Position numbers and translations under genes: made by a program. A stretch of DNA of 64,000 bases from Phytoseiulus persimilis. Taxonomy: Eukaryota; Arthropoda; Arachnida; Mesostigmata; Phytoseiidae. The DNA is taken from the NCBI GenBank assembly GCA_037576195.1, contig CM075104.1:2362775-2426774 (forward strand). The letters are read 5' to 3'. The notes under the pieces were generated by a model. It ran no database searches, was not told where the DNA came from, and saw nothing but the letters and a program-made list of their open reading frames with translations. Of the stretch, positions 4,681 through 14,300 are shown one piece after another (the stretch's first letter is position 1; every line of letters begins with the position of its first letter).

Positions 4681-5217
4681 TTTGCGAGAACTTCTGCTGC
4701 ACATGGCTGACTGGGAAGTGTTCCATCCAGCGCAAAGGCAGACTGCAAAGAAACTCGGAGCTGGGCTCATTCAGCAGCGATAGACTCAGTTAGGGTTGAG
4801 CAATCCGCGGGAATCACAATGTGTGAAGACCCTGGAGTTCTACCGTGGATAACATATCCGAACTTCTGTCGAAACTCCAGTAGAGCCCCGTTACAGCGGA
4901 TCCGAGCATAGCGGACATTCGCTTAAGGAGAAATCCCTCGTTGAGCCTTGCCGAGTCCCGATCTCCTTCCACCTGGAACAGAGCGGCTACAACGCAATTG
5001 GATATAACGGGCACTCGGTTATGCGGATGAATTTCATGGTCTGGCAATCGGTTACATCGGAGCGATTTCTTTGTACAACGGAAAGAACGATAGCGATGAT
5101 CAAACAAATGATAGGTCATTTGTTTGTCCTGAATGAACTCCTCCGGGATTGATCGGATCGACGTGGAACCAACGGCATGTTGTAGGGCAGCTCACAAGGA
5201 AGGACATAGGCCACCCT

Positions 5218-5342
5218 ATGTGATTCTGAGACCGATCTGACCATACTTTCCGGGTCCTGAGAAGGTGATCCTGGGATCGATATCATTAAACTTCTCCGAG
5301 TCTAGGCAGGTGATTCTCGGGTCGATCTTATCATACTTTTGA
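5218..5342 (-). repeat. Diverged cluster of the 45-bp satellite unit
   Basis: Nearly three units related to the large 45-bp array at 8.2-10.7 kb lie here in reverse orientation. Read on the minus strand, 'aagtatggtcagatcggtct' aligns with the array's 'aagtaatggtcagattggtt', followed by 'cagaatcac' against 'cggaatcac'. The period is kept at exactly 45 bp, so the minus-strand frame shows a 15-residue rhythm (KYDKIDPRIT.., KFNDIDPRIT.., KYGQIGLRIT..). Divergence is much higher than within the array, so this is an older copy, probably a fragment of a related transposon. Confidence 0.75.
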
Positions 5343-7827: not shown

Positions 7828-7835
7828 GTGTAGAA
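7828..7835. repeat. Target-site duplication, left copy
   Basis: gtgtagaa immediately precedes the CAGTGGTTCTC terminus. It matches gtgtagac after the right terminus in 7 of 8 bases. Confidence 0.6.
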
Positions 7836-7849
7836 CAGTGGTTCTCAAC
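7836..7849 (+). repeat. hAT-type terminal inverted repeat, left
   Basis: CAGTGGTTCTCAAC. It pairs with the inverted copy at 11,327-11,340. CA-TG termini followed by GGTTCTCAA are characteristic of many hAT elements. Confidence 0.7.
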
Positions 7850-8156
7850 CTCCACTGGCCCATCGACTCCCTGAGCGTCTTCGTTGGAGTTTATGGACTG
7901 CCGTACCCCAGGGGATCTATCGCCGACCAACGATTTCGTGAAGCGATTCCGGGGCCAATCTTTGTTTTCCGGCTGAACCTCTCAGCCAGCCCTCAGAAGT
8001 GTCCCGGAATCACCTCTCGGTATTGCTTCAGTGACACTCCCTATCGCCTCGCAAATCCCATTGCGGGCGGTGGGCTTGGGTCTCAAGATGGTTCAGATTT
8101 AATTCTGATATAAATTAAATCCTCTTTTTTTACTTTTTACCACATAAGAAATTTTT

Positions 8157-8232
8157 GTTGTCGACCGGGGATCGAACCCGCGATTGCTAGCTTAGCATGG
8201 CACCCAAGGCGTTGGTCTATCTAAGCCAATCA
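8157..8232 (-). pseudogene. tRNA-like sequence (degenerate tRNA or SINE head)
   Basis: Read on the minus strand there is an internal-promoter A-box-like segment (tggcttagataga) and a perfect B-box/T-loop (gggttcgatcccc). D-arm (TTGG/CCAA), anticodon-arm (CTTGG/CTAAG) and T-arm pairings can be drawn. However, the anticodon loop would have eight bases, the outer T-stem pair is mismatched and the acceptor strands do not pair, so it is not a functional tRNA. On its 3' side follows an A-rich stretch (acaacaaaaattt..gtaaaaaaag). The 5' end merges directly into the first satellite unit (ggggtgatt). A tRNA-derived SINE head or an old tRNA pseudogene would both fit. Confidence 0.55.
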
Positions 8233-9108
8233 CCCCTCCAGACTGGGATAGAAATGGTAAGATTGGTCTCGGAATCACCCCTATTGACTCGGAAGAGTAT
8301 GGTCAGATTGGTTCCAGAATCGCCCCTCCGGACTCGCAAAGTAATGGTCAGATTGGTCCCGGAATCACTCCTCCAGACTCGGGAAGTGATGGTCAGATTG
8401 GTCTCGGAATCGCCCCTCCAGACTCGGAAAGTCATGGTCAGATTGGTCCCGGAATCACCCCTCCAGACTTGGAAAGTTATGGTCAGATTGGTCCCGGAAT
8501 CGCCCCTCCAGACTCGGGAAGCAATGGTCAGATGGGTTTCGGAATCACCCCTCCCGACTTGGGGAGTAATGGTCAGATTGGTTTCGGAATCACCCCTCCC
8601 GACTTGGGGAGTAATGGTCAGATTGGTTTCGGAATCACCCCTCCGGACTTGGGGAGTAATGGTCAGATTGGTCCCGGAATCGCCCCTCCAGACTCGGGAA
8701 GTAATGGTCAGATGGGTTTTGGAATCACCCCTCCCGACTTGGGGAGTAATGGTCAGACTGGTCTTGGAATCGCCTCTCCAGACTCGGGAAGTCATGGTCA
8801 GATTGGTCCCGGAATCACCCCTGCGGACTTGGGGAGTAATGGTCAGATCGGTTTCGGAATCAACCCTCCAGACCTGGAAGAGTATGGTCAGGTTGGTTTC
8901 GGAATCACCCCTCCAGACTTGGGAAGTAATGGTCAGATTGGTTTCGGAATCACCCCTCCCGACTTGGGAAGTGATGGTCAGATTGGTTTCGGAATCACCC
9001 CTCCAGACTTGGGAAGTAATGGTCAGATTGGTTTCGGAATCACCCCTGCAGACTTGGGAAGTAATGGTCAGATTGGTTTCGGAATCACCCCTCCGGACTT
9101 GGGAAGTA
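8233..9108 (+). repeat. 45-bp satellite array, block 1 (about 19 units)
   Basis: Head-to-tail 45-bp units of the form ggtcagattggtttcggaat + cacccctccagacttgggaa + gtaat. Many units start at exact 45-bp steps (for example 8,526 and 8,571). Units differ by a few substitutions such as ttc/ccc and cca/ccc/ccg/gcg. Because 45 is a multiple of three and the unit has no stop in several frames, long open frames appear on both strands; I regard these as a by-product. The block starts at the tRNA-like sequence and is cut by the insertion at 9,109. Confidence 0.95.
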
Positions 9109-9357
9109 GCCCTAGCCGCAACACAGAACGAAGAATAGATAAAAAATGAGACGAGAGCTGAATGACGAAGCTGACGGCCCTTGGTGACCCGGAAGTAATA
9201 CAATACATACAGGGCTTGCCTTGAGTGCCCAGTCACCAAAAGGGCGGAGGGAGGGGTTTTAGAGGACACACCTCATAACTAGGGCAACGGACGTGAGTCC
9301 TATCTCTTGTATGCGGAGGGATTTCCCCTCCAGCCAGAAAAAAAAAGGAAAAAAAAA
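9109..9357 (+). mobile_element. 249-bp poly(A)-tailed retroposed insertion inside the satellite
   Basis: Satellite sequence stops at cttgggaagta (9,098-9,108) and resumes with ctcgggaagta (9,358-9,368), an 11-bp target-site duplication with one difference. Between them lie 249 bp of non-satellite sequence ending in a 20-bp A-rich tail (9,338-9,357, interrupted by GG). This is the hallmark of LINE-driven retroposition on the + strand. Inside, ttggtgac (about 9,178) and gtcaccaa (about 9,231) could pair as a long-loop stem. No clear A/B box and no homology to a known SINE or RNA was recognised, so the source is unknown. Confidence 0.7.
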
Positions 9358-10657
9358 CTCGGGAAGTAATGGTCAGATTGGTTTTGGAATCAACCCTCCA
9401 GACTTGGGAGAGTATGGTCAGATTGGTTTCGGAATCACCCCTCCAGACCTGGAAGAGTATGGTCAGGTTGGTTTCGGAATCGCCCCTCCAGACTTGGGAA
9501 GTGATGGTCAGATTGGTTTCGGAATCAACCCTCCAGACCTGGAAGAGTATGGTCAGGTTGGTTTCGGAATCGCCCCTCCAGAGTTGGGAAGTAATGGTCA
9601 GATTGGTTTCGGAATCACCCCTGCGGACTTGGGGAGTAATGGTCAGATTGGTTTCGAAATCACCCCTCCAGACCTGGAAGAGTATGGTCAGATTGGTTTC
9701 GGAATCACCCCTCCCGACTTGGGGAGTAATGGTCAGATTGGTTTCGGAATCAACCCTCCAGACCTGGAAGAGTATGGTCAGGTTGGTTTCGGAATCGCCC
9801 CTCCAGAGTTGGGAAGTAATGGTAAGATTGGTTTCGGAATCAACCCTCCAGACCTGGAAGAGTATGGTCAGGTTGGTTTCGGAATCGCCCCTCCAGAGTT
9901 GGGAAGTAATGGTCAGATTGGTTTCGGAATCACCCCTCCCGACTTGGGGAGTAATGGTAAGATTGGTTTCGGAATCACCCCTCCAGACCTGGAAGAGTAT
10001 GGTCAGGTTGGTTTCGGAATCACCCCTGCGGACTTGGGGAGTAATGGTCAGATTGGTTTCGGAATCACCCCTCCCGACTTGGGGAGTAATGGTCAGATTG
10101 GTTTCGGAATCACCCCTCCCGACTTGGGGAGTAATGGTCAGATTGGTTTCGGAATCACCCCTCCGGACTTGGGGAGTAATGGTCAGATTGGTTTCGAAAT
10201 CACCCCTCCAGACCTGGAAGAGTATGGTCAGGTTGGTTTCGGAATCACCCCTGCGGACTTGGGGAGTAATGGTCAGATTGGTTTCGGAATCAACCCTCCA
10301 GACCTGGAAGAGTATGGTCAGGTTGGTTTCGGAATCACCCCTCCCGACTTGGGGAGTAATGGTCAGATTGGTTTCGGAATCAACCCTCCAGACCTGGAAG
10401 AGTATGGTCAGGTTGGTTTCGGAATCGCCCCTCCAGAGTTGGGAAGTAATGGTCAGATTGGTTTCGGAATCAACCCTCCAGACCTGGAAGAGTTTGGTCA
10501 GGTTGGTTTCGGAATCACCCCTCCAGACTTGGGAAGTAATGGTCAGACTGGTCCCGGAATCGCCGCTCCAGACTCGGGGAGTAATGGTCAGATTGGTTTC
10601 GGAATCAACCCTCCAGACTTGGGAAGTAATGGTCAGATCGGTCCCGGAATCACCTCT
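9358..10657 (+). repeat. 45-bp satellite array, block 2, with 90/135-bp higher-order structure (about 29 units)
   Basis: Continuation of the same 45-bp satellite. Two monomer types alternate here: one with ggaagtaatggtcagattgg and one with ggaagagtatggtcaggttg. The second type starts at 9,451, 9,541, 9,676 (with cagattgg), 9,766, 9,856, 9,991, 10,216, 10,306, 10,396 and 10,486, so spacings are mostly 90 bp with some 135 and one 225. That is a dimer-based higher-order repeat, nearly absent from block 1. The array ends at about 10,657 in ccggaatcacctctgt. Confidence 0.95.
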
Positions 10658-10739
10658 GTAAAAAGTTGGATACACCAATGAACGGCAGGGTCTGAACTAC
10701 AGAGAACGGGCCTGTGCAGTGCGTTGTTACTGTCTCAAC

Positions 10740-10895
10740 ATGTCCGGAGCTGTGCTGTTGCTTTCTGCGTTGATTTCTGCTTCCCTCGCGAGGAATCCGA
10801 CCGACCCCAAGTACAGACTGGATCAGAGGACTTTCGGCTTTTTCGACTCGGGAGTTAACATGAGGAATAGCGACCCGAATTACGAGAAACCGATC
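10740..10895 (+). CDS. Possible first exon of a secreted protein inside the hAT-like element
   Basis: An ATG at 10,740 opens 52 codons beginning 'MSGAVLLLSALISASLA', a good signal peptide with a small-residue cleavage region, followed by a polar stretch containing 'RNPTDPKYRLDQRTFGFFDS'. Codon 52 ends exactly at a consensus donor, atc|gtgagt, giving a phase-0 intron. No downstream exon could be identified and I do not recognise the family. It sits between the satellite and the right subterminal repeats of the hAT-like element. It may therefore be a host exon captured by the transposon, a host gene the element inserted beside, or chance. Confidence 0.3.
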
Positions 10896-11184
10896 GTGAG
10901 TCCACAGGCTTTCGTTTTCAGCGACGAGTGCTCGAGAGTGCATGTGAATGGAAAAGCCGTGCGAACGTCCATCATTTCAATCCCGTCATGTCCGCGTTGA
11001 ACATCGCCACGTATTCTCGAGAACAGATGCATTCTTGGAAAGACAGAGACGTCTTACGTCATGCTGGCCGTTCCGGTACATGTTCATCAGCTCCGCCCGC
11101 TATGAAGGAGTACTATTGACATCGGAGTCGGATTGAAGCTCGACTCAGAGTCAATTCTGCTAATTCAATCGCCATAGGAACGCG

Positions 11185-11300
11185 AATGTGGACGCTAAGA
11201 AGTATGGTCAAATCGATACCGGAATCACCTCTATAAGGAGGGGGTCGACGGTCGACTCCCTGGATCCACCAACGTGGACGCTAAGAAGTATGGTCAAATC
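11185..11300 (+). repeat. Subterminal direct repeats of the hAT-like element
   Basis: Two 30-bp direct repeats (11,185-11,214 and 11,271-11,300), differing at one position, contain gtggacgctaagaagtatgg and tcaaatc. The first continues as cgataccggaatcacctct, which aligns with the 45-bp satellite unit (gaagtaatggtcagattggt and tcggaatcacc). Subterminal repeats of this kind are common transposase-binding regions in hAT elements. Confidence 0.7.
11239..11261. repeat. Hairpin in the right subterminal region
   Basis: agggggtcgac (11,239-11,249) can pair with gtcgactccct (11,251-11,261) across a one-base centre: 11 pairs, one of them G-T. It lies between the two 30-bp direct repeats. Confidence 0.7.
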
Positions 11301-11326
11301 CACTCCTAGAGGTCGATATCGACCAC

Positions 11327-11340
11327 TTTGAGAACCATTG
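11327..11340 (-). repeat. hAT-type terminal inverted repeat, right
   Basis: tttgagaaccattg, the inverted partner of the left terminus at 7,836-7,849. It is followed directly by gtgtagac, the right copy of the target-site duplication (11,341-11,348). Confidence 0.7.
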
Positions 11341-11348
11341 GTGTAGAC

Positions 11349-14300
11349 CTTCGAAGCTCTGGATCGCTCCGTTCCTTACCTTTCAGGGACCGACCTCAGA
11401 ACTCGAGGTAATGCTCTCACCCCGGACCAGGGCTGCGCGCCGCGTCACGGATTCGCCGGTGCCTGGGCGCGCCGCCGCCGCATTGTATTCATGGCGGCGC
11501 TTCATAGATTCGAGCCCGAATACCAGGGTTGCTAAGACAAATCACGAAGACGCGGAATTCACTGCTACGTATAATTTCTCCTCTCCCGCTTTTGATTTGA
11601 TTGATACTTCGACACGTGAACTCCGGCGTCGGGCACCAACTCCAGAGATTCAGTTCTCAGTGATCGCTCAACGAACGTCGGCATATTAGACATATCCATG
11701 AATTCGAAGTGTCAGGCTCTCAGCTGACGGTTCGGACGATGTGTTCATGAAGACGGGGTCTTATGAGTGGTCCGTTCCGGCCAGAAGAATTTGAAAATAT
11801 TCGCGTGATAGTCGAAAAATATTGGACGGGTTCAGAACCTAGTTTAGAACACTCGTCTATGCGAGAAGGGTTTTTCACACATTGCCAAAGGTACATGGTC
11901 GACGAATGGTTGACGAGCGGTTCCAAGAAATAGTTGACAATCAATTCCGAGGAATGGTTGACAATCAATCGATTCATCAGTTATGCAGGGACCGGATTTC
12001 CCGGCGCGTCATGGCGCGCCGCGACAGTTCCGGTCCGCCACTGTTCGCCGTGGCGAGCGTCGCCGCTGTGTATTTTCCAGTCCTTCGCCGCCGCCGTCGG
12101 AAATACCCGCGGCGCACACCTCTGCCCCGGACCGTACAGTATCTCACGGGGACTGGGGAATCAAACTGTATCCTCCAACCGATGCTGCGTGCGATATCGA
12201 GATGGAACTCGTGAAGGATCATGTTTCGCCGATGGGGAAACGCCGTTTGCGCCGAAGCCGATTTAAGCGAAAGACCAATCTCAGGGAGCCGCGCCGATGG
12301 CTCCACAGGGAAACAAAGGCAGCAGAGGGCTGTTCTCAAGCCTCCTAGATCCCGAAAATCCGCGAAGCGAACGCCGCCCGCCACAATCGGGTAATCAGTG
12401 TTTGAGTCTGTTCACGCGTCAACTCTCTAAGCCATCGCCACCTCACTCCAACCTGGCAGAGCACAGCCCGCTGTCCGCGGTCAGTCAGTACCGTTCGTCG
12501 CACGTCGCCGGACTACCTTCCTTTCCGACACATTGTCTTCATGGAGCATGAGCTCCCTGCAGCCGACCACCTGCGTTATCGGAAATCTGTCGGTCGTGGA
12601 AGCGACGACATCGCGGAAAAATTGAAGAACTCACTGATCCGGGAACTCCAATCTGCAAAACCGTCACCTGAAAGATCTCAGTACTCAATTAAGCAGCGTC
12701 GAACAAAGCAATTCACGATAGCACCCGTGAAATTTATCCCCGCATTCGCTTGAAAGAGAAAAAAACCATGAGAGCCCTCCTTGACGTAAGAGCGTCCACG
12801 GTAGGAATCGGAGCTACCGCTCACGGTTTAATATTTGGCTCGACACCCCGTCAAGATGGTAATGCAGGTCTGCAGGCATATTACGGAACGTATCGCAGGC
12901 TCAGCAAACTCGTTGCGGAAGTTATTTTCGCTCTTGATGTGAATGATAGCTTCTTTTGCAGAACCGGAGTAGCGGACGGTCCCCATGGGTGCCTAGCTGA
13001 AATACAAAGCCTCAAGTCCATGGGAAGACTCGGACTGATTAGTTGTGCGTCGAGGTTGAGGTTGGGGGTAGACCAGTCAAACGCTCCTATCGACCAGGCT
13101 TCCCTGCTCTGATCAGTGTCTGGGGCTCTCAGAGGAGTCTGTCGAGTTTCGGGTTGTCATCCTTGAGACTCGGATGATTCCCTATGAGCTCTTGCTGGGA
13201 GAGTCTCTCTTCGGAACTCATCATACTCGTTGCAGCCGTGGGAGTGAGCATCGAGAAACACTGATTTGTGCCCGAGAAAATGAATCAAACTTGTAGCGAA
13301 GGAAAATATTCGAAGCTCGAAGCTATCATTGGTTTGAGGTGTAGGGGGGAGGAAGCAGGAGGCTGTCGCCTCGGGTGCCGTATCCGTGGGGGCGCTCGTC
13401 GCTGTCCCCAACTTGGAAGAGCAAACACCACTTAGCAGACGTTCAAGGCCAACGGTCGACTTCCGATGACCCCGACTTTCAACATATTGAGGCTGCTCTT
13501 TCGGCTCGATCTCTTGTGCATCGGCGTTCGAGTGAGGGAATGTATCGGAAGTATTGTAGCTCTCAGGGGACGCGACTTCAGGAGAGGGAGCGTGAAGATA
13601 CGTCAGAGAAGGTTAGACACGCCGCTCAGCTAAGAAGGTTCTTGCCATCAAGCATTTCCGGAATGGCAGTACCCACGAAACTACGAGTCAACATCTGGGC
13701 GCGAGTCGGAGCTAAGGAGAACCTCGAGCCCGACGCAGGAATCGATGTCGATCATCAACGGGTTATCGATGAGCGCATAGAGCATTTGCGGGAAGTACTA
13801 GAGTGGCTGGAGTCCGCAGCGCTGTATTTGGCCGAGTCCAACTAGACTTCTCGTGGCTCTCCACCCGAGCTGTTCACTTTGAACAGGCGGACTTCAGGTC
13901 GCTCGGTCAGCTGATAGGAGGGTTTGCGTGAACATCCGGACTCCAAAACACCTAATTTTACAGAATCCTCGGCCGGATGTAAGCCGGCTTGCGATGCTGC
14001 TGAAATCCGCTGACGTGGCGACAGGAGAGGATCACTCAAGTGCATATTGCGTGATTTCGCCGGGAACTTTTCTCTGACGACGCGATCAAGGTCAGGATAA
14101 CGCAGCCGACGTGGAGAAACAGAAGAGTGCAGGCTCGACTCCTCAGCATGAACCTCGGGGCAGCATTCAAACCTCCCAGTTGTCACTTGCTCATCTAGGT
14201 GATGACTGAAGTTTCTCATTTCGAGCCAAACCACCCAAGACCGAAGTAAGTGGGTCGATTCCTCAATTTTTTCTTGGCCCCAGAAGTCACTTGAAGCTCA

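Follow-up and report, generated by a model that had tools for sequence, protein, structure and literature searches.

The window analysed here (the whole stretch of 64,000 nucleotides, C4:2362775-2426774 of the Phytoseiulus persimilis genome) contains a 3,505-bp segment, at positions 7836-11340, that we interpret as a non-autonomous hAT transposon (probably a Buster-group member) left by an internal deletion in an element of at least about 3 kb with subterminal satellite arrays; we put the probability of this reading at roughly 0.85. The segment starts with CAGTGGTTCTCAA (7836-7848) and ends with TTGAGAACCATTG (11328-11340), inverted repeats of 13 bp that are identical at 12 of 13 positions, and a search of the 64-kb window for CARTGGTTCTCAA with up to one mismatch revealed no further site beyond these two termini. 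The inverted termini, the 8-bp duplication around them and the tandem array between them, all described in the original prediction, are confirmed, with a duplication matching at seven of eight positions and an array that an anchor-based split resolves into 46 clean 45-bp units.

Ends and interior of the window element

The features of the segment and its borders are, in window coordinates:

7828..7835, no strand: left target-site duplication gtgtagaa, 7/8 identical to 11341-11348
7836..7921, plus strand: hAT left end, made up of the 13-bp terminus plus the left arm (nhmmer E 1.4e-22)
7922..7957, minus strand: left junction and ~20-bp remnant of the left inverted 45-bp array (junction pattern, 0 mismatches)
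7958..8220, minus strand: inserted high-copy SINE, tRNA-type from a reading of its sequence and not from ARAGORN (98-100% matches at further sites; direct repeats visible by eye beside other copies)
8228..9108, plus strand: 45-bp satellite array, first block (TRF period 45, 19.6 copies, 86% matches)
about 9113..9355, plus strand: A-tailed repeat within the array (also at array loci L056 and L051, with 92% and 91% matches)
9357..10663, plus strand: 45-bp satellite array, second block (TRF 28.8 copies, period 45 called at 9357-10654)
10679..11179, plus strand: copy of host DNA adjoining a lipase-like exon (465/501 identical, 93%)
11186..11238, plus strand: start of an 86-bp unit that shares a core with the 45-bp unit (MITE model 106-156, E 1.9e-9)
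11239..11340, plus strand: hAT right end, namely the remainder of the 86-bp unit, the right arm and the 13-bp terminus (nhmmer E 5.9e-20)
11341..11348, no strand: right target-site duplication gtgtagac, 7/8 identical to 7828-7835

The genome searched comprises 181 Mb in 127 contigs. The 13-mer terminus occurs in it 496 times (239+257), about once per 365 kb, versus nine times (3+6) for the reversed control; 60 of the 100 sites listed out of these 496 make up 30 plus/minus pairs and 40 are unpaired, and 29 of the 30 pairs span 109-268 bp, the remaining one spanning 1,413 bp. This excess over the control and the shortness of the pairs indicate that the termini belong to an abundant hAT MITE family. 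A 214-position model of this family, aligned from ten short copies and having a left arm that differs from the right arm, aligns by nhmmer to about 100 bp at each end of the window element, its positions 1-100 matching window 7836-7935 and its positions 75-214 the right end. The proposal of a non-autonomous hAT is supported, and both termini are from one family.

TA occupies positions 4-5 in 11 of 12 duplications having seven or eight matching bases (11 pairs from the 13 listed at 5/8 or better, plus the C2:27851307 copy described below). Since these duplications fit nnnTAnnn, given as the Buster-group consensus in the consulted part of PMC3517528, the hAT family of the window element probably belongs to the Buster group, as judged from sequence. 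A MITE at L008 1501-1751 combines these termini with another interior and a duplication gtttgaac/gtctgaac, and may represent a second family sharing these hAT ends.

The window element is without transposase. Left of the SINE, at about 7940-7957, lies a reverse-orientation piece of the 45-bp unit of about 20 bp, and at the other end of the array the last unit of the second block (10624-10663) matches MITE model positions 120-158 (nhmmer E 7.9e-5). ARAGORN found no tRNA in the window, and Rfam at the gathering threshold gave no match in the window and six loci. The 501-bp copy of host DNA interrupts the 86-bp unit of the element, a unit that occurs at other loci too. Its counterpart, C3:32968064-32968558 (L040 1501-1995), lies beside an open reading frame matching Abhydro_lipase (E 1.2e-17) and is presumably the donor; the copy may represent host gene DNA captured by the hAT element.

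Two further repeats lie in the window outside the element: minus-strand units of the 45-bp type at 5199-5325, degenerate and with no hAT terminus found alongside, and, in the right flank at 11434-11548, part of a dispersed repeat that is matched at dozens of genome sites. No empty site was found when the joined flanks were compared with the same genome. The two best matches were the window's own flanks, and the rest of the matches (at least 55 in all; 40 of 56 candidates scored) fell within query positions 240-375, in the dispersed right-flank repeat.

Relatives with inverted arrays around transposase remains

The 3,050-bp copy at C2:27851307-27854356 is flanked by a perfect 8-bp duplication, ctctagac. 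When it is oriented like the window element, a reverse array occupies 68-494 and transposase remains follow; 2038-2917 hold a forward array that passes into 86-bp units, the two arrays around the transposase remains being inverted relative to each other. One C-terminal fragment matches the hAT dimerisation domain PF05699 with an E-value of 0.0014 and 18.9 bits, below the curated cut-off of 21.4; two other fragments of this copy had no domain match. A second copy, at C2:5523934, was read from its right end to the far array, short of the left terminus, and presents in turn the right end, an array, a transposase match and then a further array in inverted orientation; a fragment of it gave a weak PX match only. 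A PDB search with one transposase fragment returned no match; at C3:15326800 the transposase has a third close match, with 85% identity. A third array-bearing copy, C3:24079691-24083341, has both ends and the duplication ttctgggc/ttctaggc, about 1.7 kb of its interior being unread. Two hAT features are present: short terminal inverted repeats, 13 bp in the window element, and 8-bp target-site duplications, matching at 7/8 positions in the window, 8/8 in the C2:27851307 copy and 7/8 in the C3:24079691 copy. Foldback-type elements have long inverted terminal regions composed of tandem repeats; a layout that may be of this kind is given by the inverted arrays of the C2:27851307 copy and of the C2:5523934 copy, the latter read short of its left terminus, and in the window element the left array is reduced to about 20 bp.

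Because arrays in inverted orientation bracket the transposase remains in both transposase-bearing copies read, the 45-bp array is a structural part of this hAT family, not foreign cargo. Of the original prediction that the satellite is the cargo of a hAT, the location of the array inside a hAT stood; its description as cargo was not supported, inverted arrays flanking the transposase remains in 2/2 copies.

The left junction and the 86-bp unit serve as further markers of the family. With up to three mismatches the left-junction pattern occurs at 51 genome sites and at none in the controls; exact matches are confined to the window and the C2:27851307 copy, the other 49 having one to three mismatches. 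The pattern of the 86-bp unit with its junction occurs at 19 sites at 10 loci, again with none in the controls. One near-uniform variant accounts for 33 of the 51 left junctions, and a hAT terminus is absent from the three pieces of it that were read (L141, L142, L143). In this near-uniform repeat (L141-L143 and 30 more sites) unrelated sequence precedes the left junction of the hAT and units of the array, and some of its sites are 1.4-2.5 kb away from hAT domain matches. Among 13 other left junctions inspected, three had a terminus in the first piece; extension of two revealed a terminus in one and none at C3:26993602, even with more sequence.

It is scarcely credible that two hAT ends bracket an unrelated array by chance. 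The imperfect duplication (7/8) and the occurrence of degenerate units alone at window 5199-5325 would be compatible with such an accident, but the junction and the layout recur in other copies, and this explanation was rejected on the rarity of the terminal motif, the alignment of some 100 bp per end to the MITE family and the shared left junction.

The architecture of these copies is suggestive of an ancestor of about 3 kb or more in which a terminus, a reverse 45-bp array, a transposase gene, a forward array, 86-bp units and the other terminus would have followed one another. Tandem duplication of an internal segment, through unequal exchange or through slippage in gap repair after excision, would have built up the arrays, and this growth may at first have multiplied putative transposase-binding sites, as is proposed for Tetris and reported for Galileo in the consulted part of the work discussed below. 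In the window copy the deletion would have removed the transposase gene and all but a remnant of the left array, the right one being retained; the SINE, the A-tailed repeat and the piece of host DNA would be later arrivals. Being subterminal repeats of the element, the arrays would have been carried along each time a transposase mobilised the element through its ends, and from the shared layout we infer that they were already present before each hAT insertion. Movement of arrays inside hAT copies is supported at three places with duplications; the proposal that the array moves as one unit with the element is supported by the same architecture with duplications at two other places. Against this derivation of the window element count the hAT domain match below its cut-off and the other fragments with no hit or a weak PX hit, the PDB search without a match, the window duplication of 7/8, the C2:5523934 copy read short of its left terminus, the C3:26993602 junction without a terminus, and the weakness of the arm-specific resemblance between arrays of different copies.

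A second, Helitron-type host of the 45-bp unit

The 45-bp unit also has the character of a satellite, with kb-scale head-to-tail arrays at many loci (at least 294 matches; 39 of 1,995 candidates scored). By far the longest run among the matches listed is at C1:51520059-51537558, where matches to the array extend across 17.5 kb. Eight other arrays were sampled from the strongest genome hits to the 45-bp array. None of the eight had a hAT end; all eight had a Helitron-type end and four had both, three of the arrays running past the fetched stretch on one side, so that one border was seen there. In a fifth array (L074) the second Helitron-type end lies, by its coordinates, 20 bp beyond the fetched stretch. 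Ten arrays found near 29 SINE copies comprised none with hAT ends and five with Helitron-type ends. The notion that the arrays generally lie inside hAT elements was therefore rejected, the sampled arrays being without hAT ends.

Helitrons start with TC, end with a hairpin and CTRR, insert between A and T and make no target duplication. In reverse reading, the second family has TC at its start and a hairpin followed by CTGG at its end; a host A adjoins the hairpin end in 20/20 cases, the T beside the other end having been built into the search pattern, and no direct repeat longer than 3 bp surrounds any of ten pairs inspected. Host sequence beside the hairpin end is often TTATATA-like at L086-L105, resembling the family's own other end. 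The two ends have 374 and 256 genome matches and none in the controls, the 256-match pattern also taking a variant (C for T near the end) that is frequent in the list. Some C1 copies of this variant (e.g. L105) are without a second end among the nearby matches listed, and the 256 matches may include another family. The genome has 101 Helitron_like_N matches; at three of these loci (L077-L079, each with about 1.5 kb of flanks) neither Helitron-type end model matched. Two other interpretations of these arrays were abandoned: that they are free-standing, given their shared borders, Helitron-like in reverse reading, and that their host is a non-LTR element, a candidate prompted by (AAGGAT)n at some ends and dropped since inspection revealed no target duplication.

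We regard it as improbable that the satellite is foreign cargo of the hAT and that hAT transposition seeded it genome-wide. At three places hAT ends and duplications do enclose the array, and the 45-bp unit is homologous to the MITE interior; this reading is opposed by the arrays that flank transposase remains in both transposase-bearing copies read and by the count of hAT ends, 0/8 at the strongest-hit arrays and 0/10 at arrays near SINEs. The same counts weaken the original prediction that the hAT seeds satellite DNA. With arrays present in hAT copies and sampled arrays lacking hAT ends, the array moved within the hAT, and the hAT was not the vehicle in the samples.

As to where the unit arose, it aligns over 35 columns of the interior of the 214-bp MITE with 27 identities, a score reached by none of 1,000 shuffles; this homology keeps a hAT origin possible, without giving a direction. 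Same-arm arrays of the two C2 copies differ by 0.185 on the left and 0.175 on the right, the two arms within one copy by 0.202 and 0.203, and among 120 groupings the one that unites the three left arrays comes 2nd, which hints that arrays were inherited with the element. Nine Helitron-type arrays separate from seven hAT right-arm arrays, an equally strong separation arising in 2/5,000 shuffles, in a test made without L031, which has Helitron-type ends and more diverse units; L056, with four units, was excluded from both array comparisons. Units from hAT arrays lie as far from the MITE core as units from Helitron-type arrays do, with overlapping ranges, and these distances indicate no direction of origin between the two hosts.

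Tentatively, and at somewhat less than even odds, we view the satellite as a module common to two hosts of unrelated transposition mechanism, which would have arisen as subterminal repeats around the transposase gene of the cut-and-paste hAT and been taken up by the rolling-circle Helitron-type family, which would have become its main amplifier. Alternatively, a Helitron-type repeat may have entered the hAT by insertion or gap repair and been retained as subterminal repeats, the MITE core being a leftover unit. The Helitron-type ends at 8/8 sampled arrays, the 374 matches to one of these ends and the equal distance of both hosts' units from the MITE core are consistent with this order of events, which we nevertheless hold to be rather less likely than not: no Helitron-type end was found in the window element or the C2:27851307 copy, and inverted placement around a transposase is easier to obtain within a hAT.

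Known systems and significance

The nearest precedent of the window hAT, within the consulted part of PMC4079207, is Tetris of Drosophila virilis. Tandem repeats likewise lie inside its inverted terminal regions; about 37 bp of the unit recur (~80%) elsewhere in the terminal repeat, the MITE DAIBAM has the same ends, and the repeats form kb-size arrays as well. Its unit is about 220 bp long, compared with 45 bp here, and its authors, who found no transposase-bearing copy, suggest the Mutator superfamily, whereas the present family has hAT-type ends and transposase remains. According to the same excerpt, Galileo also has tandem repeats in its terminal regions, which hold additional transposase-binding sites; Galileo belongs to the P superfamily, whereas the present element is hAT-type and its repeats are candidate binding sites. 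In miDNA4 of Xenopus tropicalis, as described in the consulted part of PMC9659126, a satellite monomer inside a MITE underwent tandem amplification, but that MITE is a Tc1-mariner element, whereas the hAT here has transposase-bearing copies. DINE elements of Drosophila, non-autonomous Helitrons whose central tandem repeats give rise to satellite arrays, resemble the second host; the consulted part of PMC9659126 makes no mention of the DINE unit in a hAT. Mar of Drosophila willistoni resembles the present family as a hAT MITE that retains relics of full-length copies and has nnnTAnnn (Buster) duplications, although the consulted part of PMC3517528 mentions no tandem array, unlike the hAT here. 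Among open-access titles and abstract openings we found neither a hAT with such arrays nor one satellite in both a hAT and a Helitron.

That satellites arise in transposon arms is already known, but for Tetris, the nearest case, no copy with a transposase was found by its authors. In the present family, arrays flank transposase remains in existing copies, so that the origin, growth and movement of an array can be traced in one genome. The presence of one unit in two transposon classes further offers a test of repeat transfer between transposons and of the vehicle by which a satellite spreads.
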